A stretch of 55,721 bases of DNA from Candidatus Rifleibacteriota bacterium. Lineage in GTDB: Bacteria > Riflebacteria > Ozemobacteria > Ozemobacterales > Ozemobacteraceae. Where the stretch lies: contig JAKQQP010000227.1 in assembly GCA_029564115.1 (NCBI GenBank), positions 1-55,721 on the forward strand, read 5' to 3'. The position numbers and the translations under genes were made by a program. The notes beneath the pieces were generated by a model. It was not told the DNA's origin. It did no database searches and saw only the letters and a list, made by a program, of their open reading frames with translations. Below, piece by piece: positions 7,201 through 26,050 of this stretch (within the stretch, counting starts at the first letter, position 1; every line of letters starts with the position of its first letter).

Positions 7201-9353
7201 TGAGCAATCTGTGTTATTGCCTCACCGGTCAGACCTTCGTTGTTGAACCAGCCAGCGAATGTGTAACCTGTTTTTGTTGGGCTGAGAAGGTTTATGGTTT
7301 CGGTTTCGACGTTGAAGCCTGCTGGGTTGTCGTTGTGGTTGGTGCCTTCGTTGAGGTTATAGGTGATTGAATAGTTTGTCAGTGTCCATTTTGCGTAGAG
7401 AGTGACGTTGGTGGTCGAACCTTGAGCAATCTGTGTTATCGCTTCACCGGTCAGACCTTCGTTGTTGAACCAGCCAGCGAATGTGTAACCAGTTTTTGTG
7501 GGGCTTTGCAGGGTTATAGTCGGTGTCTCGACGTTGAAGCCGGCTGGGTTATCGTTGTGGTTGGTGCCGTCGTTGAGGTTGTAAGTGATGGTATAGGCAA
7601 CAGCTGTCCATTTTGCGTAGAGAGTGACGTTGGCAGTCGAACCCTGAGAGATCTGTGTTATCGCTTCACCGGTCAGACCTACGTTGTTGAACCAGCCAGC
7701 GAATGTGTAACCAGTTTTTGTTGGGCTCTGCAGAGTTATAGTCGGCGTCTCGACGTTGAAGCCTGTTGGGTTGTCGTTGTGGTTGGTGCCTTCGTTGAGG
7801 TTGTAGGTGATGGTATATGAATTGACGGCCCACTGTGCGTAAAGATTGACGTTGCTGTTTGCTATTGTAAAAACAGCGCCAATGGCATAAGCGTCACCGT
7901 TACCATTGGCGCTGGTGTTCCAGCCGGCGAAAGCATAGCCGGTTTTGCTGAGATTTCCGGCATTCTTAACGGTAAAGGTCTCTTCAGATGCGTAAGGTGT
8001 GGTATCGGTCGGAACATCTCCGTCGGCACCGTTGGCATGGTAGGTGACTGTGTATGTTGGCGTCGGGCCGTTGATGATGACTGTAATGCTTTCTGAATTG
8101 GGGGAAGTGTTGTCTGATGCGTCGGTCTGTCTGGCTATAATGACCAGAGTAACGTTTTGCCCGATGCCTGGCAGAGAAATGTTTACCTGAGAATTGTAGG
8201 TTTGCCAGGTTTGGCCGTTATCGAGCGAATATTCAGCTGTTGCGCCGGCTTCAATGCCGGTAAGAGTGAAGCTCTGAGCTGAACTGTGGGTTCCGGCCGT
8301 CAGCCCGACAATCGTGGGTGCAGCAGGAATATCGAAATCGAGAGGCTTCATGTCGATTGGTTTCTGAAGACCTGGGTTTACGGCAATGACTACGCTGCGA
8401 ATTGTTTCGAGCCCTTCAGGATCTGTGGCCTTGAACGAAAAGGTGGCGATGCCGCTTTTGGCTGGAGCAACCCAGGTTGCTGAAAGATTATTTAAAGCAA
8501 TATTCAGGTTTGGGGCACCTTCGGGCTTGATCCAGCTATAAGTGAGTGTTTTGCCTTCGGGGTCAGAAGCGGTAGCGGTGAAAGTTACGGTTTCTCCCGT
8601 TACATAACGAAGTTTGTCAGATTGAAGAATCGCAGTGGGGGGAAGATTTCTGTTGCTGTTAAGATCGCTGGAACTGGGAATCGTTGTTTCGACGAAGGGG
8701 GGATTATCGTTGGGTTCAAAGTCGAAAACGATCGGAGGCAGTTTGAGGTCGATGTTCTGGTAGCCGCCCGAAACGATTTTAAATTCTACAGTGGTTCCCG
8801 GGGGCATAAGCGGGCTTTCAAACATGCCGTTTTCATCGGTGGTTACATCTTCACCCCAGATGCGCACTGTCACTCCTACAAGGGGTGAGCCATCAGGATT
8901 AGTCAGCTTCCCTTTGGCTTTTAAAGTGGCTTCTTTGAGCTCTAGTTCACCGGCGTTGTTATCATTTACCGGAGCGGCATCGACAAAACTGGAAATTTCT
9001 TTGTAGGTTTTATTGTCGCTCGAGCGAACCCTTGCAATAACTCTGTAGTTGCCTGGTGGCACCGGTCCGATCAGAAATCCGCCGTTGGCGTCTGATTTAA
9101 CTACCAGATCCGGCATGGTTTCAATAAAAACATCCGCTCCGGATACAGGCAGTTTTGGCCCAGCGACACCGCGCATGCTGGCGGGTGTTAAGCTCAGGGT
9201 ACTGACTACGGTGCCTCTTATAACCGTGGACGCCGGTGAGTTGTCGCCATCGCCGCCAATGCGATAAATCGGGTTGCAGCCGACTGTAAGAAGAAAAATG
9301 GTAAAGATGAAAACAGAAAAAAGTGCGGCATTACGGCGTAAGCGAGGCAACAT
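4284..9353 (-). CDS. large surface lipoprotein with eleven InlB B-repeats and GLUG-type C-terminus
   Basis: This is a 1689-residue secreted protein. The start is the ATG at 9353; an upstream in-frame TTG at 9371 overlaps the GGAG ribosome site. The N-terminus has RLRR, a hydrophobic stretch and LTVGC, a plausible lipobox with Cys26. Domains in order are two carboxypeptidase-regulatory-like beta modules (about 40-110 and 147-205), a PKD/cadherin-like domain (about 237-325), a chitobiase-like beta domain (about 340-425), one divergent InlB B-repeat, eleven near-identical 74-residue B-repeats (about 509-1322, each with ITYNLNEGTNHNDNP and GYTFAGWF), a last divergent repeat, and a C-terminal region with GLUG-like motifs such as GGLVGLI and GGLAGHNYG. 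Family knowledge points to adhesion or cell-surface interaction; the ligand is unknown. Two terminators follow. Confidence 0.85.
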   Translation of the reverse strand: MLPRLRRNAALFSVFIFTIFLLTVGCNPIYRIGGDGDNSPASTVIRGTVVSTLSLTPASMRGVAGPKLPVSGADVFIETMPDLVVKSDANGGFLIGPVPPGNYRVIARVRSSDNKTYKEISSFVDAAPVNDNNAGELELKEATLKAKGKLTNPDGSPLVGVTVRIWGEDVTTDENGMFESPLMPPGTTVEFKIVSGGYQNIDLKLPPIVFDFEPNDNPPFVETTIPSSSDLNSNRNLPPTAILQSDKLRYVTGETVTFTATASDPEGKTLTYSWIKPEGAPNLNIALNNLSATWVAPAKSGIATFSFKATDPEGLETIRSVVIAVNPGLQKPIDMKPLDFDIPAAPTIVGLTAGTHSSAQSFTLTGIEAGATAEYSLDNGQTWQTYNSQVNISLPGIGQNVTLVIIARQTDASDNTSPNSESITVIINGPTPTYTVTYHANGADGDVPTDTTPYASEETFTVKNAGNLSKTGYAFAGWNTSANGNGDAYAIGAVFTIANSNVNLYAQWAVNSYTITYNLNEGTNHNDNPTGFNVETPTITLQSPTKTGYTFAGWFNNVGLTGEAITQISQGSTANVTLYAKWTAVAYTITYNLNDGTNHNDNPAGFNVETPTITLQSPTKTGYTFAGWFNNEGLTGEAITQIAQGSTTNVTLYAKWTLTNYSITYNLNEGTNHNDNPAGFNVETETINLLSPTKTGYTFAGWFNNEGLTGEAITQIAQGSTDNVTLYAKWTAVAYTITYNLNEGTNHNDNPTGFNVETPTITLQSPTKTGYTFGGWFNNEGLTGEAITQIAHGSTANVTLYAKWTAVAYTITYNLNEGTNHNDNPAGFNVETPTITLQSPTKTGYTFAGWFNNEGLTGEAVTQIAQGSTANVNLYAKWTAIAYTITYNLNEGTNHNDNPTGFNVETETINLLNPTRNSYTFAGWFNNAGLTGEAVTQIAQGSTANVTLYAKWTAIAYTITYNLNEGTNHNDNPTGFNVETETINLLNPTRNSYTFAGWFNNEGLTGEAITQIAQGSTANVTLYAKWTAIAYTITYNLNEGTNHNDNPAGFNVETPTITLQSPTKTGYTFAGWFNNAGLTGETITQIAQGSTANVTLYAKWTVIAYTITYNLNEGTNHNDNPTGFNVETLTITLQSPTKTGYTFSGWFNNAGLTGEAITQITQGSAANVTLYAKWTAIAYTITYNLNEGTNHNDNPTGFNVETATITLQNPTKNGYTFGGWFNNEGLTGAAITQIAQGSTANVTLYAKWVLINYSITYNLNEGTNHNDNPAGFNVETPTITLLNPTRANADFVAWYGNADFSGEAITQIPQGSTANVTLYAKWIIYYTVSFNNNSGDTQAVPNSKQVAQGTALGVLPASPSKNRMYFRSWNTNSSGTGTVITADSIINANTTVYAIYSHFEEGNGTAENPYHVKTPYELYMTGTSSYWSKHFIQVADIDLSHATLSDASNSDWYSSEKGWSSYRGGGVRGVYDGNNKTVSNLYMKDTQAYIGLFYTISENAIVKNLKLTNINIEGGQMVGGITGMNYGLIQNCSVSGNAKGSNAVGGLVGLIYAGSGILGTVERCSTNCTVTASIFASGGLAGHNYGSISNSHSAGTVNSTSTQAGGLAYTQGGTVTNCYSITVISDKGAGFSGGSGTITNCFWDTTVSGAATSGGGTGKTTAEMKTAATFSAWDSNIWNIQDGEYPTLK
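5389..7826 (-). repeat. eleven tandem 222-bp coding repeats (InlB B-repeat units)
   Basis: Eleven copies of a 222-bp unit (74 codons) run head to tail inside the lipoprotein gene. They differ only at a few positions, for example a Pro-Thr-Ile-Thr-Leu-Gln-Ser type versus a Glu-Thr-Ile-Asn-Leu-Leu-Asn type insert that occurs in alternating blocks. This pattern suggests recent amplification and gene conversion. The repeats also keep open a long antisense frame, which is an artefact. Confidence 0.95.
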
Positions 9354-9795
9354 TGTGTGATTATTCTCCAATTCGTTGAATAGCTTTTATTTTAATAGAA
9401 TAGGAAAAATACTATTACGGTTGCGACTTAGTTCACAATAAAAATGTGAGAAGTGGCGACATATTTTATTTACAGCAAAGCTCGACAGATATTAAGCGGC
9501 CATGCCAGGAACTGGCAGCGCAGCGATATTCCGGCAGCGAGAAGCCGCTTTGCTGTGCTTGCAGTGACTAATTTTCGATTATCGGGATTTTGTCGGCAAC
9601 AGTTTCTGCTATGGAGTCGCCTGTGGTTTGAACAGTAAAAAAACAGGCAGAGGTTGTGCTGAAAAAACTGTAAATCATGCCTGGTTTTGTTTTTTGGGCA
9701 ACTTAAAATACTCATCGATACAGGATAATTGAAAAATTTTATTTTAGGCATGATTTTTGCTCTGAATCAAAGAAAAATTTCTGGAGGATACAATA
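9354..9795. other. intergenic region between divergent genes, with a possible relic of an intergenic repeat
   Basis: No gene is evident. Positions 9520-9570 contain a stretch resembling the CGAGAA...GCTTTGCT...GCAGTGAC part of the element at 26081-26305, so this may be a third, decayed copy. The upstream part (9354-9440) is AT-rich and should hold the promoter of the minus-strand lipoprotein gene. Confidence 0.35.
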
Positions 9796-12137: not shown

Positions 12138-12240
12138 ATGGGCCACGGATGAACAGGATAAGACACGAGCCACGGATGAACAGGTAAGACACGAGCCACG
12201 GATGAACACAGATTGACACGGATTGAGAAAGAGAAAGAGA
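12138..12240. repeat. minisatellite with GCCACGGATGAACA units
   Basis: Three tandem units of 26-29 bp begin with GCCACGGATGAACA (near 12142, 12169 and 12195) and are followed by GAGAAA hexamers. The block starts directly after the PFL terminator T-run and lies upstream of the cyclase pair. The same core occurs in inverted orientation at 28361-28640. Confidence 0.85.
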
Positions 12241-12253
12241 AAGAGAAAGAGAA

Positions 12254-12302
12254 GGAAGAAGGAAGAAGGAAGAAGGAAGAAGGAAGAAGGAAGAAGGAAG
12301 AA
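12254..12302 (+). repeat. seven GGAAGAA heptanucleotide repeats in front of a ribosome binding site
   Basis: Seven perfect GGAAGAA copies run from 12254 to 12302. An eighth, altered copy (GGAAGGG, 12303-12309) serves as the Shine-Dalgarno for the ATG at 12316. Reading frames through the tract stay open, giving a spurious Arg/Lys-rich N-terminal extension. Confidence 0.9.
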
Positions 12303-12315
12303 GGAAGGGTGTTTG

Positions 12316-15276
12316 ATGAAACTTTATGGTGATATAAGGCTTCGCATGTTGATTGCAGCGGTTTTTATACTGCTGGTGATGCTGCCGGTTCTGTTTATAG
12401 GCACTGGTTTGCGTCGAGCCTTTGCTGAGGCCTGTCAGATGCGGCTGAATATCGCTGAACACGATTTAAAGAAAGAGGCGAAGTTTTTTCAGGAAGATCT
12501 GATAGCCCGGTTGCACGTCGAAAAGCTGATCAAGAAGGCTGAAAGGCGAGCTGGTTTGAGTTTTCCGACTCTTGAGCGGCCGCGGTTTGCTTCTGGTGTC
12601 GATCCGCAGATTTTCACCGAGCAGACGATTGCTGAGCTGATGGCGCATTATCGGGAACTTGCGGGGGTCGAGCCGCTGATGATGGTGGCTTTCAGTGCTG
12701 ATATTTATAATATCTGGTCATGGTTTGCTGCTGATTTGGATGATATTGAAGAATATGATCGTGAGCGTGTTGCCCGCCTGTTGAGCGTCATTTTTTCAGA
12801 GCAGGTTGAATTTGTTCCGGTTGATGCAACCAGACCAGATGCCAGGCACAGGTTTTACGAAGCCAGAAAGTTGGCTTTGCTTGATTCGGGTGGCCCGGCT
12901 CAGGTTTATTTTCAGCTTATGGGGCGCCTGTTTTCTGATATGATTTATCAGCCCCATTTTCAGGGCAGTTGTTATGAAATAGCGACGCGAAAGCGTGGTG
13001 AACGCAGACTTTTCTTTTATTACCGTCGAGTGAAGGACGGCCCGAAAATTATGGGCGGTTACTGTGTGTTATTTGGTGGCCGTTCTTTTCCACCTGAAAA
13101 ACTGTTGAAAGATTCACTTCGTCCTCAGACTGAAGGTTGTCGGCGCGGTTATCTGCAGCGGTTTCCGGTAGAAGTTGGTCGGGTGATCAGACGCAAGAAT
13201 AGTCTTGAAGTTGAAAGCAATCTGCCGACAGAGCTTATCGGCTACAATTCTCTTTTTAAAAAAAAAATTGCTTTGCCAGGGGCTTTGCTTGCCTCATTCG
13301 ATGTTTCGGCAATAATCTCTGAATCGACTTCTCGCACTCGTCAGGTCGTTTTTATCCAACAGGCGCTGTTCCTGCTTTGTCTGTTCATTTCGACCTATTT
13401 CATTCTTTATGGGTTTCCGGCGGTTATGCGGCTGCGATTGCGTATGTTACTGGCGATCAGTCTCGCGGTTCTGCTGCCTTACACAATTCTCGCTTATATT
13501 TCCCTGAGGCTGCTCGACCGAATAGAGAGCCTCGGGCGTCATGAACTGAGGGCAGACTCAGAGAGCCAGATGCAGCGGTTGCACAGTTATTATAATGACC
13601 AGTGTCAGCAGTATCTTTTGCAGACTTTAAAGATGAAGAACCGCCTGATAGCGGTTGTTGATAAGCCGGAAGAAACAATCATGGGTCTGCCGCCCCAGGC
13701 CATTGTCGGCCAAAATCCGTTTACAGAGGTTTATTTTTTTCGCGACGATGGTGTTGCCAGATCGTTCAAGCCTCGTGAGCCGGCCGATACAGAGCCGCCG
13801 AAGCTGGAAAAACTGCTGTCGGTCAAGTATCTTGAAAATCTGGGTTGCCTCGATAGTTCAATGCCTGCTGTCAAAAAATTACAGCGCATGACCAGCGTTG
13901 CCGACGGAATCATGGATACGGTTCGTCATGAATACTTTGATTACACGGTATTGCGATATGAAGCCAACGAAACCTATGATCTCAACAAGTTCGACGATTT
14001 TTCTCGGATGATCTGGTTTCTGGTGCCGGGCCAAAGCGGAACAGGCCCGGTGCGGGCGATGGCTTCGACCAATGTCAGCAATCTGAATTACGTTATCTAC
14101 AACCCCTGGGAATTCGACCCCGGCATATTTTCGTGTTTTTCAGGCCGTAACCGTCACCACTTCATCATGGGGCAGCGGCGGTATGACGACATGGTGTTGC
14201 GTTGGTGGCCAGACTATATCAGCCCCGATCACAAACTCAAGCTTCTGCTCGACAAGACCGTTGCTGAGCGTATCAGCACTGGTGAGCTCACCGGTGCCGG
14301 CGGTTACTACCGATATGAAAAGCAGCGTTTCAGTGAGCAGGATGCAATGGTATATTCGGGCGTATCGTCGAGTTCGCCTGATCTGCTGGTTGCTTTGCTG
14401 GCGTGGTTGTTTCCGTTTTTGCTGTTGATATTTGCTCTGACTTCGCTGTTGTTGTTTACCGACGCTCTCATGGCACTTTTTATCAGCCCGGTAAAAGGCA
14501 TTGCACAGGCTGCCGCTGCGGTTGCCGGCGGTGATTACCACAATCGCCTGGCTATTGAGAAAACAGACGAGTTTTCTCTGCTTGCCGATGCATTCAACGA
14601 TATGAGCAATGGGTTGGCGCAGCGTGAGAAAATGCGTCGCTTCGTTTCTGAAAACCTTTATGACCGCCTTGGTGCAGCCACTGGTCTTAACGAGATTCGT
14701 TCGGTGCAGTCTTCGCGGGTTACCATGCTTGCCTCGGACATTCGCGGCTTTACAAGCCTCAGTGAGCAATATGACCCGCATCAGATAGTCAGTTTGCTCA
14801 ACGACTATTTCACAGCCATGGAAACAGCTATCAATAGTCAGGGTGGTGTTATCGAGCGCTTTGTCGGCGATGCCGTCATGGCTGTTTTTTATTCTGGCGG
14901 GGAAAAGGCTGCCGAAGTTCGGGCGGCTGCAGCTGCCCTCGAAATGAGGCGTCAGCTGGTTGCTCTCAACCATGATCGTTCAGAACGGGGTCTTTTTACC
15001 ATTGAAAACGGTGTGGGTATTGCAACCGGAGAGGCATCTTCAGGAATCGTCGGACGGGAAGGCGGCCGCATGGTTTTTGCCGTTATCGGCGAAGTGGCTC
15101 ATCGTGCCGAAATTCTTGAGAGTCTGACCAGGAAGGTATCATCTAAAGTGCTCGTCTGTGCCGAAACCAGAAAGCTTATTGATGATCACTTCTTATTAGG
15201 CAGCAGTCTTGAATCTTCGGCGGGCCTGGCTTTTGAGCTTTGTGACCCCGGAACATCCGGAGGTAACAATGGCTGA
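12316..15276 (+). CDS. receptor nucleotidyl cyclase, metal-site half (C1-like)
   Basis: This 986-residue membrane protein ends in a class III cyclase domain (about 800-980). Membrane segments lie near residues 8-30, a pair at about 342-398, and one at about 689-712, leaving two large extracytoplasmic regions of roughly 310 and 290 residues. A HAMP domain spans about 720-780. The domain keeps both metal-binding aspartates, Asp808 in SDIRGF and Asp852 in FVGDAVMAVF. The other catalytic positions are lost: Arg848 replaces the purine-binding Lys, Val920 the specificity Asp, His929 the transition-state Asn and Ile933 the Arg. Alone it should not be active. The ATG at 12316 is chosen for the GGAAGGG six nt upstream. 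Its last eight bases overlap the next gene, so translation is coupled. Confidence 0.9.
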   Translation: MKLYGDIRLRMLIAAVFILLVMLPVLFIGTGLRRAFAEACQMRLNIAEHDLKKEAKFFQEDLIARLHVEKLIKKAERRAGLSFPTLERPRFASGVDPQIFTEQTIAELMAHYRELAGVEPLMMVAFSADIYNIWSWFAADLDDIEEYDRERVARLLSVIFSEQVEFVPVDATRPDARHRFYEARKLALLDSGGPAQVYFQLMGRLFSDMIYQPHFQGSCYEIATRKRGERRLFFYYRRVKDGPKIMGGYCVLFGGRSFPPEKLLKDSLRPQTEGCRRGYLQRFPVEVGRVIRRKNSLEVESNLPTELIGYNSLFKKKIALPGALLASFDVSAIISESTSRTRQVVFIQQALFLLCLFISTYFILYGFPAVMRLRLRMLLAISLAVLLPYTILAYISLRLLDRIESLGRHELRADSESQMQRLHSYYNDQCQQYLLQTLKMKNRLIAVVDKPEETIMGLPPQAIVGQNPFTEVYFFRDDGVARSFKPREPADTEPPKLEKLLSVKYLENLGCLDSSMPAVKKLQRMTSVADGIMDTVRHEYFDYTVLRYEANETYDLNKFDDFSRMIWFLVPGQSGTGPVRAMASTNVSNLNYVIYNPWEFDPGIFSCFSGRNRHHFIMGQRRYDDMVLRWWPDYISPDHKLKLLLDKTVAERISTGELTGAGGYYRYEKQRFSEQDAMVYSGVSSSSPDLLVALLAWLFPFLLLIFALTSLLLFTDALMALFISPVKGIAQAAAAVAGGDYHNRLAIEKTDEFSLLADAFNDMSNGLAQREKMRRFVSENLYDRLGAATGLNEIRSVQSSRVTMLASDIRGFTSLSEQYDPHQIVSLLNDYFTAMETAINSQGGVIERFVGDAVMAVFYSGGEKAAEVRAAAAALEMRRQLVALNHDRSERGLFTIENGVGIATGEASSGIVGREGGRMVFAVIGEVAHRAEILESLTRKVSSKVLVCAETRKLIDDHFLLGSSLESSAGLAFELCDPGTSGGNNG

Positions 15277-18124
15277 AAAAAGCATCAATATAAGCCGCCG
15301 TCTTTCGTTTGTTTCTCTTGGACTCGCCTGGCTCACTGTTTTTGCGATACCGGCAGTTCTGCTGCAAATCAGCCTGGAATATCTTTTTTCTATCACATTG
15401 CAGGCTAACCGCCAGGCGGCGATTGCCGCTCTTCCGGGTGAAATGAACAGTTTCAGACATGATTTGAAGGCCGAAACTTTCATTGAAAGAAAATTGCAGC
15501 GTTTTTTTGCAGACAGCGGTGTTTCTAAATCTGGAGCTTCAGAAATTGCAGAAACGTTGAACAGTGCGACAGGTCTCAAGGCGGCCATTGTTGTGACTCA
15601 TTCGTCTGACGTTGATGATTTGGAAACTTTTGTCGCAGCACACATGCAACAGGAGTTGCCGACTCTGTCGCGAAGTATGTTGCGGCGTTATTTCACCGTT
15701 CTGAACCAGTGGCATGCCGAGACTGCCATAGAACGCCCGCAGTCTCTGAGTCGTTCCCGCAAAGACGCCGATACATTTTTTCGCAGACAATTTGGTCTGA
15801 TTTCTGAAATTCCGCTTGAGCCTGGGCTTGTCTGCCGCACTGTTTCGGCAAAGTTCGGTGGCCCGGTATTTTTCTTCTATTGGTCACCGGCAAGTTCAGA
15901 TACTCTCAATAAGAAGACGGTCGGCGGTTGCCTGGTGATTTTGCGCGGTTTAGACCTGGACCAGAAACGGATCCTCTCTGAAGCTGTCGATGTACAGGCT
16001 CGCGGTATCAGACGCAGTTTCGCTCGTCTCAATATTGCGCTTGACCGCGAACACCACCTGACACGAAGCATTATAACCGATTACTTTGCCGATGAAACCG
16101 GCCAGCACATGATCTCTACTTTTCCTGATTCGGCACTTGTTGATTTGATTCAGGGTGGTGGCCTGGTGCCGCACAATCTAGACAGGGTTCTGGCACGTCT
16201 ACCGTTGTTGCGGGTAACGATGCCCGTTTCTGAATTGCGGCATCCTCTTGCAGAGAGGGCTTCACTCATTTTTGGTCTGGCCCGCCTTATTGTCTGTTTT
16301 GGCGCAGTATTTCTTTTGCGGCTCTATTTTTTTGGCATCGACTTTAAAATGGGAATCAGGCCGAAAGTGTTGTTTGGCACCTCGGCGATGCTGCTTTTGC
16401 CCGTAAGTCTTCTGTTGGCCGGCCTGATAACCTGGAATCAGTTCAACAAGGTTTATGGCTGGTATCAGGCTGAAGAGTTGCAGCGGCTGTATTTTAATGA
16501 GCTGTATGAGGGCTTTTCTCATTATCAGGCTTCTTTACAGAGGCATACTGTAAATGTGGCCGATTCTTTAAAAAAGATGAGAAACGCTGGTGAAGCCGAA
16601 TACCGTCGGATTGTCGAACGCGGGCTCGAAAAATCGGTTGCTTCAGAGCTGTTTTATGATCTTGACAGTGGCAAACGCATATACGCCAGGTCTGGCAGGT
16701 TTTTCAAGCCTTCTTCCAGAGAAGAAGAGTCTGGTCGGCGGCTCGTGGCATCGGCAATTTTAAATGGTTTTGACCGCAGTGGCAATTTTTTTATCAGCCA
16801 GGCTCGTGGCAAGGAAAGGGAACCTGGCACCCTGGATTCGTCATTTGTCAACGAACTCGGCAATCGCTGGGGGCGCCCGTTCAAAATGATGCGCATAAAT
16901 GTCGGAACCAGATTTTCGACGGCTTTCGTGTTCAATGACGACAACTATAGCCTCTATGGTTTGTTGTCTTTTAAATACCACGACGGTGATTTGATTCGAG
17001 ATTACATTCTCAACCATTTCAAACCGTCTGCCGAATTTGCCGGCATCAATGCCAGATTTTTCGAAGTAATTGAAGACGGCGCCGGTTATAGCCTTGCAGA
17101 ACTTGCCTCCGGCAAAACTTTGCCCGCCGGTGGACTGCTCGAAAAGGTCAAGCTTGCCAAAGACGTCGAAAGCTTTGTCTGGCGGGAAAAGGGAAAAAAT
17201 CTGCTGCAGGTTCGCTGGTTCAACGATTATCCGCTGGTAATGCTGGTCAGTTCAGAGGCTCTGACTGCCGAAGCATCGGCTCGGGTCTGGCCCGGCATCC
17301 TTTTAAGCTATGGGATTTTGCTGCTTGTTTTTGTTTATCTTGTATTCGAGTTGATTTATCTGAAGCCTTTGCGTGAATTTATCAGAGTTACCGGCGAAGT
17401 TGAAAGCGGTAATCTGCAGGTTGCTGTGCAGTTGCAGGCAAATGACGAATTTGCTGATTTAAAGGCAGTTTTTTCTGAGATGATTCAAGGACTCGATCAG
17501 CGTCGTAAACTGACGCACTTCGTATCTCAGGATGTTTTAAGCGCTGTCGAAAGTGATTCAGGGGTTGATATGGCTCCGGGCGGTGTCAGGCTCGCTGCTA
17601 CGGTTGTATTTATACAGTTGCTGCCGGCTGCTGCAGATGAGCAGATCGCACCCGAGACGCGCTTTGCCATTCTAGACCGGTTTATCGGCGAGGGCGACCA
17701 GATTGCCAGATCATGCGGCGGTGTTATTGACAAGGTTATTGAGAATACGCTGATGTTGGTATTTCGTGCCGCTACAGCGGGTGAACGACATTCGCTGCAG
17801 GCCTGCCGAGCCACTCTGCTACTGGCCGCCGCCGTGCGGGCTGCTGGTTACGGTGTGTGTGCCGGCGTTGCCAGTGGCAACGTCGTTTCGGGGCGAATCG
17901 GTTCGAGGCTTGGCAAACTTGATTATACCGTAATCGGCGATACGGTCAATCTGGCGGCCAGGCTCAAGACTGAGGCGGCGAAGGCCGGCACGACCGGCAT
18001 CATCGTTGCCCCTTCCACAATCAGGGGTTTAAGGGGCCAGGGCCGCGTCGCCTTCATCGAACGCGTCGAGATCAAAGGCAAAAGTCGCGAGTACCCATTG
18101 TATGAGCTTCTTGAATTGCGCTGA
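15269..18124 (+). CDS. receptor nucleotidyl cyclase, substrate-site half (C2-like)
   Basis: This 951-residue paralogue has the same plan: a membrane segment near 11-39, a pair at about 330-391, one at about 673-700, HAMP about 701-755, cyclase domain about 770-950. It has the opposite losses to its neighbour. The metal aspartates are replaced by Gln783 (in VVFIQLLP) and Asn826 (in KVIENTLM). Lys822, Asp885, Asn894 and Arg898 are kept, in IDKV and DYTVIGDTVNLAARL. Lys plus Asp predicts ATP rather than GTP as substrate. The ATG at 15269 follows GGAGG and overlaps the upstream stop as ATGGCTGA; an upstream TTG at 15209 is less likely. With the first protein it would complete one active site. Confidence 0.9.
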   Translation: MAEKSINISRRLSFVSLGLAWLTVFAIPAVLLQISLEYLFSITLQANRQAAIAALPGEMNSFRHDLKAETFIERKLQRFFADSGVSKSGASEIAETLNSATGLKAAIVVTHSSDVDDLETFVAAHMQQELPTLSRSMLRRYFTVLNQWHAETAIERPQSLSRSRKDADTFFRRQFGLISEIPLEPGLVCRTVSAKFGGPVFFFYWSPASSDTLNKKTVGGCLVILRGLDLDQKRILSEAVDVQARGIRRSFARLNIALDREHHLTRSIITDYFADETGQHMISTFPDSALVDLIQGGGLVPHNLDRVLARLPLLRVTMPVSELRHPLAERASLIFGLARLIVCFGAVFLLRLYFFGIDFKMGIRPKVLFGTSAMLLLPVSLLLAGLITWNQFNKVYGWYQAEELQRLYFNELYEGFSHYQASLQRHTVNVADSLKKMRNAGEAEYRRIVERGLEKSVASELFYDLDSGKRIYARSGRFFKPSSREEESGRRLVASAILNGFDRSGNFFISQARGKEREPGTLDSSFVNELGNRWGRPFKMMRINVGTRFSTAFVFNDDNYSLYGLLSFKYHDGDLIRDYILNHFKPSAEFAGINARFFEVIEDGAGYSLAELASGKTLPAGGLLEKVKLAKDVESFVWREKGKNLLQVRWFNDYPLVMLVSSEALTAEASARVWPGILLSYGILLLVFVYLVFELIYLKPLREFIRVTGEVESGNLQVAVQLQANDEFADLKAVFSEMIQGLDQRRKLTHFVSQDVLSAVESDSGVDMAPGGVRLAATVVFIQLLPAAADEQIAPETRFAILDRFIGEGDQIARSCGGVIDKVIENTLMLVFRAATAGERHSLQACRATLLLAAAVRAAGYGVCAGVASGNVVSGRIGSRLGKLDYTVIGDTVNLAARLKTEAAKAGTTGIIVAPSTIRGLRGQGRVAFIERVEIKGKSREYPLYELLELR

Positions 18125-18183: not shown

Positions 18184-18840
18184 CTAATAGGTTGTGGCCT
18201 TGAAGAATTTGTTGTTGTCGTTTTCGAAGGGCATGAAGCGGTAGCGGCGCAACTGAATGAGTTTGCGGTTGAAATTTATTTCGCACTCGGCTATCAGCTG
18301 CGCTGTGAACGTTGCCAGAACAGTTTTTCGATCGTCGGTGTAGTTTAAAAATCGCCCCTGAGATTTGATCAGAAACTTCTGCGGGTCGGTATAAGCGGTT
18401 GAGCTGGCGGCTGGGTAGGAAGTCACCCTGAAGTGGTAAGGCGGGCTCGCCGTCGTCTCGTTAACGAAATAGTTGGTCAGCGATTCGTTCAAAAACAGCC
18501 AGTCAGAAGGGACTGAAGCAACCTGATTGCGTCTGGTGCTGGTCCAGTATGAGTTGATACCTGTCCAGTCGCTGGCGGTCGAGTGAATTACATAGGTGCG
18601 GCTGGCAACTGCAGCGGTACTGTTGATAAAGGTGTTGCGGTTTGTCTGTGAAAGCGCAATGGCGTAATTTACCCCGGAAAAAGCGGCATCTACAGCTCTG
18701 TCTGTGTGGTCAGACATATTTTGGACTTCTATTTCGGTCTGCACCATTTTCATGTAAGCCATAGATACGGTCATCAACAACCCAAAAATGAGCATGACCA
18801 TTATCAGACCGACCTGACCGCTTTTGCTGTGTGAGTTCAT
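18184..18840 (-). CDS. PilX-like minor pilus assembly protein
   Basis: This 218-residue protein has one N-terminal membrane helix (about 9-30) after a short SKSGQVG leader. It then has QTEIEVQNMSDHTDRAVDAAFSG, which resembles the PilX N-terminal region, where a Glu/Gln-rich stretch is followed by an Ala-rich helix. The rest is a globular domain presumed to lie outside the inner membrane. It is the last gene of the minor pilin operon, five bp after its neighbour, and AGGAGG lies about 12 nt before its ATG. The family assignment is by pattern and position, not by strong identity. Confidence 0.65.
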   Translation of the reverse strand: MNSHSKSGQVGLIMVMLIFGLLMTVSMAYMKMVQTEIEVQNMSDHTDRAVDAAFSGVNYAIALSQTNRNTFINSTAAVASRTYVIHSTASDWTGINSYWTSTRRNQVASVPSDWLFLNESLTNYFVNETTASPPYHFRVTSYPAASSTAYTDPQKFLIKSQGRFLNYTDDRKTVLATFTAQLIAECEINFNRKLIQLRRYRFMPFENDNNKFFKATTY

Positions 18841-18845
18841 GCTTC

Positions 18846-19415
18846 TCAGCCTCCTGCGCCCGGCGCTGTCAGAACAATGCTTTCACTGCTGATGATTTCG
18901 CGGTCACTAAAGTCGATGTAGCCGTCGTAATTGACGTCTTCAGTGGCTTCAATATCGCTTCTTATCTGCAGGTATATTTTAATGGTCCAGGTTGATAGCC
19001 GCTCTACCAGAAATAGTCCGGCGTTTCTGGCCAGCCGGGTGTTCCATTGTTTCTGCAGAGTTGTGTCTGTGCCGCCGACCCGGCGTTGAATCGTATTATC
19101 GGCGACTTTACCGATTTTAAATTCAGGAGTCACGCCCGGAAGTGTGTAGCCAAGCGTATTACTGAGAACCGGTGAGCTGGATGCGATTGGGTGTACTATT
19201 TCCGTCGCTTTCAGCAGGTCCTGTTTGATGAGGTCGAAGGTCGTGCGGCTGTAATTTTCGGTGCTGACTTTGGTGTGACCCTTTTGCCAGACGAGCGAGC
19301 CATATTGAATATAGGCGATGACCGAGACCATTATCATGGTCATGACTATAGTCGCCGTGAGTACTTCCACCAGTGAAAAAGCTTTTTTAGGTGCCGATAA
19401 AAAGATTTTTACCAT
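18846..19415 (-). CDS. PilW/GspJ-like minor pseudopilin
   Basis: This 189-residue protein carries a type IV prepilin signal, KKA-FSLVEVL, with Ala at -1, Phe at +1 and Glu at +5, followed by a hydrophobic helix of about 20 residues. The remaining domain has the size of minor pilins such as PilW or GspJ. A DVNYDGYIDFSDRE stretch near residue 160 looks like a calcium-binding or dockerin-like loop. The ATG overlaps the stop of the FimT-like gene by seven bp, which marks an operon. Confidence 0.75.
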   Translation of the reverse strand: MVKIFLSAPKKAFSLVEVLTATIVMTMIMVSVIAYIQYGSLVWQKGHTKVSTENYSRTTFDLIKQDLLKATEIVHPIASSSPVLSNTLGYTLPGVTPEFKIGKVADNTIQRRVGGTDTTLQKQWNTRLARNAGLFLVERLSTWTIKIYLQIRSDIEATEDVNYDGYIDFSDREIISSESIVLTAPGAGG

Positions 19416-20080
19416 AATACGTCCGTGTCCGAGTCGCCGTCATCATCGACAGCGTAAGATTCTGAAGACAATACTCCGACGGCGTTGAGATACACCCTGA
19501 TGCGGGCATTGCCGTATTCGAAGAGTATATGACATTCTGAAAGCAGTTTCCTCAATGTTTCACTTACCCCGGTGCCATCATGGGTAACCAGGTAGCCATC
19601 CGGCCAGAAATAAATGATGCGCGGCTGCAGCCAGGCTTCGCGAACAACTTCCACGCCAGATTCGATAAAGATCTCTTCGAAATCGAGAACGCTTTCCCAG
19701 TTGGCGCTGTCGTAAGAATCATCATTCAATGCCGCATTCAGGTCGGGTGGCGTGTTGCCCTCGAGGTAGCCAGCGTGCATCTGTATTTTGTAAGATTCGC
19801 CGTCAACAGAAAAAATCATGCGGTGCAGAGCCTGTTCTTGCATTGCCCGGTATTTGGCAAACCTGATATTTTGAACCATCAGCTCGGCTTCGGCCTTTAC
19901 CCGCTCTGAAGAATAAAAATTCGCCAGCCCGGGCAGAACGATGCTGCTGACGATCGAAATAATCGCCATGGCCGTCAGCACTTCCATTATTGTAAAGCCG
20001 CATCGGCAGGGAAAATGCCGCCCCGGCTCCGTCGATAAGCGCATATTGCCCGGCGAAAGACGCAGAGTTGAGTCTTTCAT
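19409..20080 (-). CDS. FimT/GspH-like minor pseudopilin
   Basis: This 223-residue protein has the prepilin cleavage motif CRCG-FTIMEVLTAMAII near residue 28, with Gly at -1 and Glu at +5, then a hydrophobic helix and a GspH/FimT-type domain (YKIQMHAG region). I chose the ATG at 20080 because it forms an ATGA overlap with the stop of the giant pilin gene. The leader before the cleavage site is long, and an ATG at 20044 is an alternative. The ATGA junction implies translational coupling. Confidence 0.78.
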   Translation of the reverse strand: MKDSTLRLSPGNMRLSTEPGRHFPCRCGFTIMEVLTAMAIISIVSSIVLPGLANFYSSERVKAEAELMVQNIRFAKYRAMQEQALHRMIFSVDGESYKIQMHAGYLEGNTPPDLNAALNDDSYDSANWESVLDFEEIFIESGVEVVREAWLQPRIIYFWPDGYLVTHDGTGVSETLRKLLSECHILFEYGNARIRVYLNAVGVLSSESYAVDDDGDSDTDVLW

Positions 20081-23000
20081 GGCGTGAACTTCCAGATCGA
20101 GCGGCTCGGGCCAGAAGTACCTGAATCGGAGCCACCTATCAGATAAATTGAAGAACCGCATGAAACGGCGGTCATCGAGTAGGCCGCGGCCTTGGGGACA
20201 TCAGCAATCTGCCTTACCATGTTTGTTTCCGGGTTCCAGGCAAAGGCCGTTTTGATGTTGGCGCCTCCGCTGCGCCCGCCAAAGATAAAGATTTCGTCGC
20301 CGTGCGAGCAGGCGGCGGCTTTATGGCGTCTGATTGCCGAATGCACGGTCATTTGCAGCCATGTATTGGTATCGAAGTTGAATCGTTCATATTCAGACAA
20401 AGCGGTTCCGGCAGCATTGGCACCGCCGACTCGATAAACCATGCCTTTGTGCCAGACAAGACAATGATCCGCTACCGGCTCAACCATATTCGGCAATGAT
20501 CGGCTGATACCGAGCGAAAAATCGTTTGCCGAGTTGTATTCGTGGTAACCGTGCGGCCAGTAAACAAGGCTGGTAGAGGTTGCTGTGGTTCTGGGGTTAT
20601 CGACAACACCGCCGGCAACGACAATACCGTATGGGGTGACGCAGGCGGCGTTTTCTTTGACTTTGACCAGCGACAGATTGTCAGTCATGGTTCTGGTCAT
20701 AAAAGTCTGATTTGTTGCGGGAACAGTTGTCTGGGTCGAGTAGTATTCGATCTCCCATACTTCCAGTTGGTCGCCATACGAGCTGTTGCAGAGCAGGCGA
20801 TAGTATCTGTAATTGCTTGTATTGTTGAAATAAAAGGTGTTCCAGACCCCGTTGCTGGGGTTTTGTGGCGAAACGCCACCGGCGATGCAGGGGATGTCTG
20901 TCCAGCCGCCTGTTGTGTCGGCACCGCTCGAGGACGACAGAGAAGTTGCCCCTTGAAGTTTGAAGTCTTTGATGCCCTTGTCGTTGCCCGGGCCGCAAAT
21001 GATTCTGACAATGTTTATATTGTCGGCGGTGCCAAGATCGATCTGGTGCCATTCTCCACTCGCTGGAACAGCTCTGTCAGTGTCCCATTCGTTAGAGGTG
21101 TTTGCATTGCCGTCAAAGGCTTTCCAGGCAGCGCCGGCACCGGCTGCGCTGGCACTGACAGTTTTGCCGTCTTTGATGTTGCTGGTCATGTTGGAAGGCG
21201 ATATTTTGCGCACTTGACCGGTGATGAGCTGTAACTCTCGCATTCCCCAAAGGCTCGAACTGCCGTGATTAGAGGTAACTGTAAATCTGTAATATCTGTA
21301 TGCCGTAGTGTTCGTAAATTCGCATGGCCAGGCACTGCTGTCTTTGGGTACGTTGCCGCTTTTTTTCAGGTGCCAGGTCGAGGCATCATGTGATCCTTCA
21401 AATTTAAAACCTTGAACGCCGGTATTTGCGAAGGTCTGGTTATTGGTGACAATTAGCTTGTTAACTATTGGGGCTAGAATGTCTGAGCCGAAATCGTATG
21501 TTATGCTGTTGTTGTTGGCAGTTGAAGACCAGCCGACAGAGGTATCGTGATCGAAAGCTTTCCAACCTTCCTGGTATTTGACTGGTAAAAAACCATAAGA
21601 ATGAACCGACCCGGTGTGAGTAACTTTGTATGGTGCCGGAACAGTCGAACCGGTCATTTTGCTTGAAACTCTGAACTCTGTTGTCGCACCGGTGACTGGT
21701 TCCTGGTAGGCGAGAACTTTGCCGGTGCCCGGGTTGAATTTTTGCACCAGGCTGGTTATGGTGCCGATGTTGCCATCAAAGCCATTGAAGGCATATAGCT
21801 CGTTATCGTAGGCAACAACCGTATGCATGTTGATTTTGCGTGGCAGGGTCGCTACCAGTGGCGTAATATTGCCGGTAGGCGAAGCCAGCGGGTTGAAACA
21901 GAAGATGGTATTGGTCGCCGCTGCATTTTCGAGGGTAGAGCCGCCGAGAATATAAATGCCGCCGCTGGCCACAGCTGCGTTGTTCACTCCGCAGATATCG
22001 ATCGACAAGGTCGCGACACATTCGTAGGTGCCTGATCCGGGAGTGGATTTGATTGTGTTGAAGGGCATGTTTGCAAGAACTTTAGGTGCTCCCTGCATTT
22101 TTACCACTCCGGCAATGCTGCCGAAGCCGGTTAAAGCAGATTGATTACGTGTGACACCGTTAAAATTGAATGATTCTGGCTCAGAAATATCGACGATTAT
22201 GGTTTCTTTGTTGGCATCTTCTCTGGCGTAAATGAGCTTTTGCCCGTCCTGGCTGATAAGAAGCTGTTTATCGGTGATGTCAATAGAGGCGAGATTTATT
22301 CTGGTGATTGGCTTGCCTGGCTTCAGACACCAGACAGCATCGTTGGTGCCGTCGAGTATATAAAGAATCGGGTCGGCGATGTCACGCGAGAACTGCATAC
22401 AGGTTAAAATACTGTTACTGGTACCGGTAATTGGGTATGCTCGCAAAAAAGTCGGCTGAAAAGAAAATGGCATTGTCGATGCCGAAGCGATGTTTCGCCA
22501 GCCGGTCATGCTCATAAAGCTGCTTTCAAACGGTGTGGCCACTGTTTTATTGAGTGTGCCGACTGCCTGACCAGCTGTCTGGTGTGTGAACATGCCCATG
22601 TAGCTCGCGCCGCCGGCCTGAATTTCGATGCCACAGATACAGGGGTTGTTAACCGAACCTTTTAAGAGTTTAATTTGCAGCCCATTGCCACCGCTGACAA
22701 CAACGTTGTCATAGACCATTACCAGCGCGATGTTTTTGCCGCCGGCCCGTTGAAAAATGTCGAATTCAGTTTCTCTGGTTACCCCTTCGATGTTGATGTG
22801 AAATTTTCTTGCGTTGGCTGCATCAAAGAAATTTTCGTTGAAATGAAGTTTGACCAGGGCCGGGCCATCAGGAATCCAGTTGAAGTTGTAGTCAAGAGTG
22901 CCGTCGATCCAGCGGTGGGTTTGATAAAGCGCTGCGGGAATGCCGTTCAGATTTGTGACCGGGTCTGATGTTGGACATAAATTTCCCGCTGATGAGATGT

Positions 23001-25953
23001 CAGCATCCCAGCCGGTTACAGCTGTGCCGCAATACATCTGAATTTTTGTGGTCTGCGCCCTGCAGACATCCAGTTGAATCTGGGTCTGACTATTAGCAGG
23101 CAGATTTGGGGCTGTTTCCATTATTGTTTCAGAGTTGGCCGGGTTTTCTGCTATCGGCTCAAAATTCAGAAACAGGCGGCTGAAATCCATCTGGGCGATG
23201 GAGAGCATGTTTGCCGTGTAATCTGGCTTGAAATAGCCAATGAAACGTTTGTTTGCTCTGTTTTTGTTTGCGTGGTTGGTATTGGGCAGCAGAGCATTGC
23301 TATAATCGAAATAATAGTTTGCCGGCGAAGTCTGGTGACTGACCCACGAATCGCTTGCCGTGGTGCTGTTCTGTAATCTGATACCATTCAGCAGAGACGG
23401 ATTGTTCAAAGAGTAGGTGCAGCTGGCCATTACTTTATTGAAGTTCCATGGCTCATGATTTTGTTCGCGATAATCGACAAGCAGCCCGTTGAGCTGGGTT
23501 TGCCAGTTAAAATTGTTGGCGGCAAAATCATAGATACGAATCACATTGGGGCTGCCGGAAGATTCGATGGCCAGATAACGGTCGTCGGCGCTTAACGCAA
23601 TGTTCAAAGAATTGTGCGGCGGAAAATTGTTTTCAGTGCTGTACCAGCGGGCAAAACGTTCGTATTTGCCTTTATATGGGCCGAAACTGTGTTTGCCAAC
23701 CCACTCGAGCATCGAGGCTTTGCTGGTATTGTGGGTGTAAAGAATCAGAAAGCCGCCATTTTTAAGAGCTTCAATGTCATGGCCTCGCCACCCGGTTGGG
23801 ATATCCACGTCATTCGGACTTTTGTAACCGACAGGAAGCGGTGAAGGCAAAGGGATATTCGCCCAGTAGCCGTTGGCCCAGCCGGTTGTGGGGTGGTAGT
23901 CCATACTCATGAACATTTCGGCAGTCGTGTCGATCATAAGGTCTTCGTTCGGGGTTGCAACCCCGTACATCCATTGAGCGCCGTGCGGATAGGCGTTCAG
24001 GGCGGTGCGTGCCCCCCAGGTTTCGAAAATGTCGAGACCGGCACGATTGGGGCCATAACCAACCCGCATCTTCTCGCCGCTGCGGCTGATAGCGATGCAT
24101 ACGGGTGTGGCTGCCAGGTCAATTCGCAGACCTTCTGTCGGTTTTCTTTTGATAGGGTCTGCTTCTGTCATCGAGTTGATATCGACATATTCAATAAAGT
24201 TTTTGCCGCCATCGACGCTGCCCACCAGGACATACTCAGGGGTTCTCACTGTCATGTTGACCTGTGACTTGTCGCTGGGCGCAAAATTGATGGTGCGGTC
24301 ATCGGGTATGCCAGATGTATATGTATTATTTTTCAACCCGGCGAGGTCAACTGCAAACAGAAAGGGTTTTTTCTCTTCGTCGATGACAAAATCACCGCTT
24401 TGCGGCACGAACAGGCAGTATTCGAGCTTTTCTTTTTTGCCGAGGTTATTGGGGTCGGCTTTTTTAAAAATGCTTGTGTTTGTGAGGTTGTAATTTGTGC
24501 TGATAATCGGTTGAGTCTGCAGGTGCATCAGAAAAAAGCCGCCCTTGTCGGCGCCAGAACCGGCATCGACTATGCCGAGATATCGCCCGTCGCCGCTTAG
24601 TTTGATGTCGCTGCAGACCCCGCTTGGCGTTGGTGTTATGGTTGATATGCCGATGCGTTTGCCGGTGTCTGATTTGTGTCGGGTAAGGATGTTATCGGCC
24701 CAGAGAATATAAAATTCCTGGCCATCGGGTGTGGTGTCGAGGGCCAGAATGTTTTTATTGCTGGCGTCAGTGATTTCGTGTGGCGGATTCGCAAAAATTT
24801 TGTCTGAATACATCGGAAAACGGATTGCACGATTACCGTCTTTGGGGCCGATGTACAGCCATCCGTCTTTGCCGGCGTGCAGAACGGTGTTTTTGTCTTT
24901 TGTGGTTTCGAAAGATTGCTGGTTCAAAAGAGCGAGGTTGTTCCAGTTGGTGGTGTTTGAAGCAAGAAAAGCGAAAATTTTCTTTTCGTCGTGCGCGGCA
25001 ACGTAGACGAATTTTCCGTCGGGTCTGAAGGTTATTGCCCGGTCTTCGCCGGCTTTGTTTTTATCGTCTTTATTGACGTCAGCGAGTTTTGGGGCATAAA
25101 CTCCGATATTACCGATTCCGTTGATTGAATATGAGGGCCAGATCACTTTACAGTCGCCGTAGTTGGGGCTGGTTCTGTCTATGTTCAGGGCTTTTATTTT
25201 ATGTTTGCATTGAATGACGATGAACCTCTGGTTCGGGTGAACGGCGATATTCCAGGGGCGGGCACCATCATTGCTGCTGTCGTCTCGAGGCTTGGCAGTG
25301 TTGTCGAGCGGCAGCAGAAAACTGTCGGCTTTGGTGCGTGAAATCGGGTCTATTGCGATAATTTCGACGTTTTTGGGGTTTGAGAGCCAGATGTAGTCAT
25401 CGCTGAAGCTTGGAATATTCAACAATGAAAACAGGCTGATCGATTCAGAGGCCAGATCTGGTGATTGAGGGGCTGTCGCTATTTCGGCAAAAACGGTTAT
25501 GGCTTTGAGGCCGCTCAGACCAACTATGTGTTTTTCGTCGATGGCCAGAGATGTTGTTGCCAGTTTGAGGTTTTCGTCGATTGCTACGCTCACCCGGTAG
25601 CCAAACAGTAAGCTTGAGACTGTGGCAGTATTTTCTGTGAAGCTTGCCGGATCGATGAGAGAGTCTGTTGTCAGCAGCTGAGGCTCGGTTGAATTGTCGT
25701 AGTAGACGTAGTGAAACACCGTTGAAGTGTCGATTGCCGCATGATCGAAAGCTGCCTGAGAAATTTCTTTGTTGAGACGTGATCTGGCGAGAATTCGCAG
25801 TTTTTCGCGGTGGTCGAAACTTTGCGTTTTTTCCATGCCGCTCTGTAGCGTGCCCATAATCGGAAGAATACAGTAGCCGGCGATAATCGTGGCGATTAAA
25901 GCCTCGATCAGCGTAAAACCGCGTTTTTTTAAAAGTGCCCAGAGATTTTTCAT
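20077..25953 (-). CDS. giant pseudopilin fused to propeller, discoidin and Kelch modules (probable pilus-tip adhesin)
   Basis: This is a 1958-residue protein. It begins with a textbook prepilin signal, KKRG-FTLIEALIATIIAGYC, within the first 15 residues, so it should be cleaved by prepilin peptidase and assembled through its N-terminal helix. Ordinary pilins have 130-250 residues. The following 1800 residues are extracellular: about 180-1000 contains repeated blade-like segments (FRPDGKFVYVAAHDEKKIFAFL, LSGDGRYLGIV, LSADDRYLAIES), a Kelch-like stretch lies at about 1317-1417, two F5/8 type C (discoidin) domains at about 1451-1579 and 1588-1741, and Kelch repeats (IFIFGGRSGG, IYLIGGSDSG) at the end. 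An AAGGGG site precedes the ATG at 25953; the upstream TTG at 25959 is too close to it. It heads the minor pilin operon, where PilV would be expected. Confidence 0.85.
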   Translation of the reverse strand: MKNLWALLKKRGFTLIEALIATIIAGYCILPIMGTLQSGMEKTQSFDHREKLRILARSRLNKEISQAAFDHAAIDTSTVFHYVYYDNSTEPQLLTTDSLIDPASFTENTATVSSLLFGYRVSVAIDENLKLATTSLAIDEKHIVGLSGLKAITVFAEIATAPQSPDLASESISLFSLLNIPSFSDDYIWLSNPKNVEIIAIDPISRTKADSFLLPLDNTAKPRDDSSNDGARPWNIAVHPNQRFIVIQCKHKIKALNIDRTSPNYGDCKVIWPSYSINGIGNIGVYAPKLADVNKDDKNKAGEDRAITFRPDGKFVYVAAHDEKKIFAFLASNTTNWNNLALLNQQSFETTKDKNTVLHAGKDGWLYIGPKDGNRAIRFPMYSDKIFANPPHEITDASNKNILALDTTPDGQEFYILWADNILTRHKSDTGKRIGISTITPTPSGVCSDIKLSGDGRYLGIVDAGSGADKGGFFLMHLQTQPIISTNYNLTNTSIFKKADPNNLGKKEKLEYCLFVPQSGDFVIDEEKKPFLFAVDLAGLKNNTYTSGIPDDRTINFAPSDKSQVNMTVRTPEYVLVGSVDGGKNFIEYVDINSMTEADPIKRKPTEGLRIDLAATPVCIAISRSGEKMRVGYGPNRAGLDIFETWGARTALNAYPHGAQWMYGVATPNEDLMIDTTAEMFMSMDYHPTTGWANGYWANIPLPSPLPVGYKSPNDVDIPTGWRGHDIEALKNGGFLILYTHNTSKASMLEWVGKHSFGPYKGKYERFARWYSTENNFPPHNSLNIALSADDRYLAIESSGSPNVIRIYDFAANNFNWQTQLNGLLVDYREQNHEPWNFNKVMASCTYSLNNPSLLNGIRLQNSTTASDSWVSHQTSPANYYFDYSNALLPNTNHANKNRANKRFIGYFKPDYTANMLSIAQMDFSRLFLNFEPIAENPANSETIMETAPNLPANSQTQIQLDVCRAQTTKIQMYCGTAVTGWDADISSAGNLCPTSDPVTNLNGIPAALYQTHRWIDGTLDYNFNWIPDGPALVKLHFNENFFDAANARKFHINIEGVTRETEFDIFQRAGGKNIALVMVYDNVVVSGGNGLQIKLLKGSVNNPCICGIEIQAGGASYMGMFTHQTAGQAVGTLNKTVATPFESSFMSMTGWRNIASASTMPFSFQPTFLRAYPITGTSNSILTCMQFSRDIADPILYILDGTNDAVWCLKPGKPITRINLASIDITDKQLLISQDGQKLIYAREDANKETIIVDISEPESFNFNGVTRNQSALTGFGSIAGVVKMQGAPKVLANMPFNTIKSTPGSGTYECVATLSIDICGVNNAAVASGGIYILGGSTLENAAATNTIFCFNPLASPTGNITPLVATLPRKINMHTVVAYDNELYAFNGFDGNIGTITSLVQKFNPGTGKVLAYQEPVTGATTEFRVSSKMTGSTVPAPYKVTHTGSVHSYGFLPVKYQEGWKAFDHDTSVGWSSTANNNSITYDFGSDILAPIVNKLIVTNNQTFANTGVQGFKFEGSHDASTWHLKKSGNVPKDSSAWPCEFTNTTAYRYYRFTVTSNHGSSSLWGMRELQLITGQVRKISPSNMTSNIKDGKTVSASAAGAGAAWKAFDGNANTSNEWDTDRAVPASGEWHQIDLGTADNINIVRIICGPGNDKGIKDFKLQGATSLSSSSGADTTGGWTDIPCIAGGVSPQNPSNGVWNTFYFNNTSNYRYYRLLCNSSYGDQLEVWEIEYYSTQTTVPATNQTFMTRTMTDNLSLVKVKENAACVTPYGIVVAGGVVDNPRTTATSTSLVYWPHGYHEYNSANDFSLGISRSLPNMVEPVADHCLVWHKGMVYRVGGANAAGTALSEYERFNFDTNTWLQMTVHSAIRRHKAAACSHGDEIFIFGGRSGGANIKTAFAWNPETNMVRQIADVPKAAAYSMTAVSCGSSIYLIGGSDSGTSGPSRSIWKFTP

Positions 25954-26050
25954 GCTCAAAGCCCCTTCTCTGACGGATTCAAAAGAACAGTACCCTGGCT
26001 CGGATGTAGAATTATCGAGTGTTTGTTTTTTGCCGACTGCCCTCTTTTCT

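Follow-up and report, generated by a model that had tools for sequence, protein, structure and literature searches.

Two Overlapping Receptor Cyclase Genes

The window analysed here, the whole 55,721-nucleotide stretch of contig JAKQQP010000227.1 from Candidatus Rifleibacteriota bacterium (assembly GCA_029564115.1), carries two overlapping forward-strand genes, A and B, for receptor-type class III nucleotide cyclases whose active-site residues are divided between the two products. Gene A (12316..15276) encodes a 986-residue protein that represents the metal-binding half; it keeps Asp808 and Asp852, and has Arg848, Val920, His929 and Ile933 at the remaining active-site positions. Gene B (15269..18124) encodes a 951-residue protein that represents the base-binding and catalytic half, with Lys822, Asp885, Asn894 and Arg898 kept and with Gln783 and Asn826 at the metal positions. 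The eight-base-pair overlap between the genes that the original prediction had described lies at 15269..15276 on the forward strand, and a ribosome-binding-like GGAGG is found inside gene A, five bases 5′ of the start of B (ATG at 15269).

The class III cyclase domain (PF00211) is recognized at 55.4 bits in A and 27.1 bits in B, both of which exceed the curated cut-off of 21.9. The domain of A spans residues 798-956 (14707..15183, forward strand), while the Pfam-matched part of B covers residues 822-940 (17732..18088, forward strand); in the structure model the B domain begins upstream of this part, near residue 773, where its first strand lies. A HAMP domain had been proposed for both proteins. 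This holds for A (residues 720-767, 14473..14616, forward strand; PF00672, 39.7 bits), whereas the HAMP-like segment of B (residues 698-743, 17360..17497, forward strand) reaches 21.5 bits and stays under the Pfam cut-off of 25. No NCBIfam family scored above its cut-off for A or B, and no cyclase domain besides these two was found in the window.

AlphaFold models of A and B have mean predicted local distance difference test (pLDDT) scores of 81.9 and 80.5, respectively, with weaker stretches at the junction of the HAMP and cyclase domains. In both, a long N-terminal helix precedes a first extracytoplasmic domain; two helices connect this to a second domain, from which a further helix runs into HAMP and then the cyclase fold. 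The membrane segments predicted from hydropathy agree with the modelled helices in each protein. The modelled cyclase folds of A and B both match solved class III cyclases; for A, the matches in the structure comparison fall on the cyclase domain, and for B the Foldseek matches are a mix of beta and alpha chains of soluble guanylyl cyclase (sGC). In profile searches against solved structures, A matches sGC alpha chains and the C1 part of AC5, which are metal-donating halves. The B profile matches the C1 part of AC5 as well as AC8, with no sGC alpha chain among the matches listed, so that the chain preference of the two profiles gives only a hint.

Upstream of gene A, a perfect 7-bp tandem repeat (AGAAGGA, 8.3 copies, 12250-12307) ends eight bases 5′ of the ATG, and a 26-bp repeat (12142-12208) lies just upstream of it. 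The AGAAGGA repeat occupies the place of a ribosome-binding site, and its copy number could tune or switch the translation of A.

Division of the Active Site

Residue positions were read from an alignment of 242 cyclases (A, B and 240 relatives) with the motifs printed, and the kept and replaced residues that had been proposed for both proteins are those found in the alignment. Together with the comparison with solved cyclases, this rules out that the active-site positions were misread. In a homodimeric bacterial class III cyclase one chain holds all catalytic residues, which is the case for neither protein: A is without the lysine, base-recognition aspartate, asparagine and arginine, and B is without the first and second metal aspartates (D1 and D2). 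What is found is one composite residue set split over two homologous chains, as in class III cyclases of the heterodimeric type. Lysine and aspartate at the base-recognition positions are the rule for adenylyl rather than guanylyl specificity, and B carries this pair, which suggests an adenylyl-type site.

The split recurs in relatives of both proteins, which were chosen before their residues were seen (62 A relatives, P0001 and P0123-P0183; 73 B relatives, P0002-P0074); a few of them are incomplete or align solely in the C-terminal quarter, and the other listed matches (48 and 59 rows, mostly complete cyclases with some A-like or B-like ones) stand outside these counts. All 62 A relatives have the two metal aspartates, the asparagine position is never asparagine in the 61 readable rows, and the arginine position is still arginine in 7 of 62. 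Among the B relatives, D1 is absent in 73 of 73, while the lysine, base aspartate and asparagine are present in all 73 and the arginine in 72; the second metal position is aspartate in 28 of 73. The expectation that the split would be kept in relatives therefore stands in that none of the 62 and 73 proteins keeps all six residues, but some of the six losses are not conserved. At the core of the split, what stays constant in these sequences is D1, lost in B, against asparagine and mostly arginine as well, lost in A; the other losses vary.

Named relatives belong mostly to Candidatus Riflebacteria or Rifleibacterium (among the best 120 of 178 and the best 120 of 142 matches), and two top matches are 98-99% identical. 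The closest named A relative among the matches listed, P0134, is labelled Erysipelotrichia. This label is probably wrong; L030, a locus of the same phylum set, also bears it. Two records, titled Methylomirabilis (L024) and Erysipelotrichia (L030), have pairs of the usual type and belong to the same phylum set as the genome HGW-Riflebacteria-1 (G001); their titles are probably wrong.

Paired Units in Related Genomes

Across 135 loci from 18 genomes and the window, 94 paired units were found in 14 genomes and the window. Strict complementarity holds for 92 of the 94 (54 tandem and 38 fused), and the other two are a fused unit with a complete A half and a unit cut by a contig end (L005), which was removed before the count of 93 readable units. 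That complete A half is the only label needed besides A and B among the readable units of this set, and no unit with two complete halves occurs among the 93. A precedes B in 49 of 54 tandem and 39 of 39 fused units, and B precedes A in five. Another 28 loci, taken from additional genomes of the phylum, contributed 20 units, 16 of them strictly complementary; here the order B then A is common (11 units). That the losses complement each other is thus borne out in 108 of 114 paired units, with six exceptions. The recurrence of the pattern across paired units and relatives rules out a one-off decayed pair.

Tandem genes are spaced from -173 to +3 bp in the 54 readable units, most commonly -4, -11 and -8, with spacings measured from the first possible start codon, so that the large overlaps may stem from a misplaced start. 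Patterns taken from B located the first 47 loci, which hence favour B; ten of these, from censused genomes, were left out of the 135-locus set. For the census and the fused regions, Pfam match and frame length were the sole grounds of selection, and the 28 loci were selected because of A-like matches, long frames or gene adjacency. Genes were paired at -250 to +60 bp in the 135-locus set and at -800 to +150 bp in the 28-locus set.

Among the 93 readable units, the invariant positions are D1 and D2 in A and the lysine, asparagine and arginine in B. By column entropy, the asparagine and arginine positions of A rank 125 and 137 of 177 columns, and D1 of B ranks 87 of 161, near the median. Invariance where residues are kept and drift where they are lost is the behaviour expected of a split site. 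The base-recognition lysine and aspartate are found in 88 of 93 B halves. Retention of these residues also extends to A halves (lysine in 74 of 93, base aspartate in 58 of 93), and the A protein of the window has neither.

Of the six exceptions, L005 and L192 are cut by an end; L194 (656-10529) has three receptor cyclase genes A, A and B in a row, of which the rule joined A to A; and the second half of L199 keeps D1 and is without D2. In L194, two A proteins possibly share one B, or a B gene may lie upstream of the locus. The other two exceptions, L117 and L208, contain complete halves and are weighed below.

Single halves in the 135-locus set outside the censused genomes number 11 (nine B, one A and one incomplete A) and were read by eye. 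Five B halves start at the locus edge (L022, L026, L037, L042, L160), and two more begin near the locus start (L013 and L038, 126-3068). Contig coordinates show that the single A of L001 and the paired A of L005 are the same gene; L011 holds an adjacent A and B, the A half without its end, and accounts for two of the 11; and L028 holds a short single B. In the 28-locus set, ten domains are unpaired. These are four A halves in frames cut by an end (L188, L200, L206, L213), a fragment (L191), two complete domains (L211, L212), the third gene of L194, and the neighbouring B and A of L215, which lie 189 bp apart and outside the rule.

Natural Fusions

In 39 units the two halves lie in a single open reading frame of about 2000 amino acids, with the metal half first. 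Such fusions occur in 13 of the 14 genomes with units; the remaining genome, G011, was outside the long-frame sampling. A database search with one fused protein returned 34 relatives, with A followed by B in 30, a complete A half in one, and no readable second half in three. Two fused chains that were checked have their own membrane segments in each half. Assembly errors are ruled out as the source of the fusions by their presence in 13 genomes and in one database relative that sits on a 5.2-Mb contig. Separate-gene and single-chain forms occur in one cell, with many units per genome. Fusion of two neighbouring subunits is classic evidence of joint action, and by this established reasoning the A-B fusions indicate that the subunits act together.

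Census of Two Draft Genomes

A whole-genome search with PF00211 at E values up to 1 gave 64 matches in the draft genome of HGW-Riflebacteria-1 (G001) and 62 in that of Rifleibacterium amylolyticum (G004), and 125 domains were read. The two genomes hold 36 paired units, 18 each (26 tandem and 10 fused), and 53 single cyclases, 48 of which keep D1, D2, asparagine and arginine; complete single cyclases number 23 to 25 per genome. No lone A or lone B half was found among the 53 single cyclases. Among the paired domains 1 of 72 is complete, in contrast to 48 of the 53 singles (Fisher p = 1.3e-27).

The five remaining single cyclases are degenerate, and bear on the alternative that A and B are pseudo-cyclases, that is, receptors with no catalytic activity that would act by binding nucleotides or by regulating other cyclases, with complementary losses as by-products of decay. 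Both halves have indeed lost essential residues, and the five degenerate singles show that pseudo-cyclases do occur in these genomes. However, these five lack the A or B pattern, decay would not spare exactly the other half-site as is seen at the invariant positions of the 93 units, and A-B fusions are common, all of which makes this alternative very unlikely. As a separate observation, degenerate singles that are neither A nor B have similar motifs in G001 and G004 (L083 2034-3161 and L134 2355-3440; L118 1603-3828 and L154 2406-4670), and it is possible that they are conserved pseudo-cyclases.

More than 60 class III cyclase domains are thus present per genome of under 6 Mb in G001 and G004. 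Cyclic-nucleotide-binding domains matched 17 and 19 times in these genomes, which makes receivers of cyclic AMP (cAMP) plausible. Cyclic-nucleotide signalling seems, from these counts, to have undergone a large expansion in Riflebacteria.

Origin and Divergence of the Two Halves

Homology between A and B extends along most of both proteins, the receptor part included (hhalign probability 100, 876 columns), and this extent indicates one duplicated receptor cyclase as their source. A tree built from 63 domains of G001 and the window places all 19 A halves in one group (support 89) and 17 of the 19 B halves in another (96); the fused A halves and the fused B halves also form one group each (99 and 96, respectively). 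With the six catalytic columns and one neighbour on each side removed, the approximately unbiased (AU) test gives p = 0.319 for one A clade and p = 0.228 for one B clade. Distances among A halves track those among B halves over the 19 units (Mantel r = 0.854, p = 1e-4). The matched distances and the tree groups suggest that pairs were mostly duplicated as units. Since A and B are related to each other even in the receptor part, a bacterial origin separate from that of eukaryotic cyclases, and thus convergence, may be proposed.

Two distant tandem pairs of other receptor types show different combinations of losses: L208 has a complete half beside one that has lost D2, and L209 has one half with lysine in place of D1 and one with serine in place of asparagine. 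With only one or two catalytic losses, these pairs perhaps represent early stages or separate origins of the split.

Interpretation of the Pair

The sequence evidence supports the heterodimer proposed in the original prediction, through the A-B fusions, the absence of lone A or B halves in the two searched draft genomes, and the matched divergence of A and B. For these reasons, A and B very probably form a membrane receptor adenylyl cyclase that is an obligate heterodimer and has a single composite ATP site. The sequences extend beyond that prediction to a large family with 18 units per censused genome, both gene orders, and single-chain fusions.

Several observations weigh against this conclusion. 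The fused protein L117 7030-13044 has an A half that keeps all core residues, and the database relative P0247 shares it; the distant tandem pair L208 likewise includes one complete half. Strict loss is therefore not universal. The residues that were counted are also those by which classes A and B had been defined, though no readable unit was dropped, and the absence of lone halves comes from draft assemblies of unstated completeness. Activity despite changed catalytic residues is known for some class III cyclases, so that loss of the asparagine alone does not prove that a site is dead. A and B would also diverge in parallel if adjacent genes were simply duplicated together, and two of the 19 B halves in the tree, both from units in the order B then A, fall outside the B group. 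In B halves, D1 is replaced by glutamate in 4 of 93 and D2 is aspartate or glutamate in 74 of 93, and such halves might still bind metal. Finally, cross-pairing among paralogues is possible.

The carboxylates in B halves, along with the one complete fused A half, are what would be expected if one subunit were the enzyme and the other an allosteric regulator, with homodimers of A or B weakly active by way of substitute residues. The window pair does not fit this, as its B has glutamine and asparagine, with no carboxylate, and its A is without the lysine, base aspartate, asparagine and arginine; this is the least probable of the readings considered. Cross-pairing would lead to a mixed network in which A and B halves also pair with halves of other units or with complete cyclases, an arrangement that is compatible with an obligate heterodimer. 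All halves are homologous, and each censused genome offers 18 paired units and 23 to 25 complete singles as partners. On the other hand, every half in the two genomes adjoins or is fused to its complementary partner, the fusions hard-wire that partner, and A and B diverge in step, though co-duplication alone could cause this. Such promiscuity is unlikely on the whole, if less so than either of the other two alternatives.

For the heterodimer itself, models and hydropathy suggest a topology in which each subunit would cross the membrane with four helices, the first and second separated by one extracytoplasmic domain and the third and fourth by another, and the fourth would lead to a HAMP-type linker and the cyclase domain. 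The cyclase domains of A and B would pair head to tail, with A providing the two metal-holding aspartates and the triphosphate loop, and B providing the lysine and aspartate that read adenine and the asparagine and arginine that stabilize the transition state. The A-B dimer would then have one working ATP site and one dead pseudosite, and either homodimer would have no working site. The mirror site would be without D1 on the B side and without asparagine, and usually arginine, on the A side; in the window pair it would have lost the base pocket as well. The two extracytoplasmic regions are presumed to sense signals, which the paired HAMP linkers would combine to set the output of cAMP. Dimerization, ATP as substrate, cAMP as product, and signal integration are all predictions of this scheme. 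In units that keep the lysine and aspartate in A, the dead site could bind a ligand, similar to the forskolin site.

Comparison with Known Cyclases

The predicted arrangement resembles that of mammalian membrane adenylyl cyclase, in which a composite site takes its metal aspartates from one half (C1) and its base-binding residues, asparagine and arginine from the other (C2), and in which the second site is a dead pseudosite. The fused Riflebacteria proteins further resemble it in having a membrane part and a cyclase domain twice per chain, with the metal half first. Unlike the mammalian enzyme, the window pair is encoded by two genes, and in place of six-helix bundles there are about four predicted helices, two large extracytoplasmic domains, and HAMP. 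The six-helix membrane domain of the eukaryotic membrane adenylyl cyclase family is not found in A, B or two fused chains, which have about four segments per half by simple hydropathy.

In sGC, the available text of one study describes metal-binding Asp486 and Asp530 as coming from the alpha chain, the rest of the site as shared with beta, and homodimers as inactive (PMC3591389). Like A and B, sGC consists of two separate homologous subunits, and the A profile matches its alpha chains. It differs in being soluble, in sensing nitric oxide, and in using GTP, while the Riflebacteria pair are membrane receptors with an adenine-type lysine and aspartate in B. The NeoR/RGC rhodopsin cyclases of chytrid fungi are described, in the portion of the report available, as obligate heterodimeric receptor cyclases from separate genes (PMC8815786), a trait shared with A and B. 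They differ in that RGC1 and RGC2 keep all known cyclization residues, the need for a heterodimer being ascribed in the same text to other regions (PMC8815786).

Bacterial class III cyclases are described as homodimers in the accessible sections of two publications (PMC9552081, PMC4821796). The homodimeric enzymes Rv1625c, CyaB, CyaC and Cya2 share the fold of A and B, and differ from them in having two equal sites from identical chains. According to the part of the study at hand, Rv1625c point mutants D300A and R376A are each inactive, and activity is restored when they are brought together (PMC4821796). This complementation provides a precedent for a heterodimer of A and B.

Homodimerization is presented as a fundamental difference from eukaryotes in the portion available of a 2016 eLife paper (PMC4821796), and a 2022 review states, in its accessible part, that no bacterial class III cyclase is known to be a fused dimer (PMC9552081). 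A literature search for heterodimeric, fused or inactive bacterial cyclases, in a collection with few subscription papers or preprints, found no such pair among the papers listed. A search under the names of these organisms found, among the papers listed, nothing on their cyclases; the one paper that mentions both names a list of phyla and uses a two-hybrid assay. The sequences support the original prediction, which understated the case: they indicate a bacterial variant, new among heterodimeric class III cyclases, that also occurs naturally as a single chain. The evidence leans modestly toward a broader proposal, that Riflebacteria independently invented obligate heterodimeric receptor adenylyl cyclases and metal-half-first fusions, at about 18 units per genome, as two-input sensors with an allosteric dead pocket.

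Both split and fusion, a design previously held to be eukaryotic, are found in a bacterial phylum that has received little study. The review left open which advantage duplication and fusion give a cyclase over the form found in bacteria, and this question becomes directly testable. The pairs also offer bacterial models, free of G proteins, for the asymmetric activation and second-site pocket of human adenylyl and guanylyl cyclases.

Other Features of the Window

Two further regions of the window lie on the reverse strand. The gene at 4284-9371 encodes a 1695-residue protein with many near-identical internal repeats. Behind the cyclase pair, at 18184-25959, the N-termini of the genes resemble, by eye, the leaders of type IV pilins or pseudopilins.

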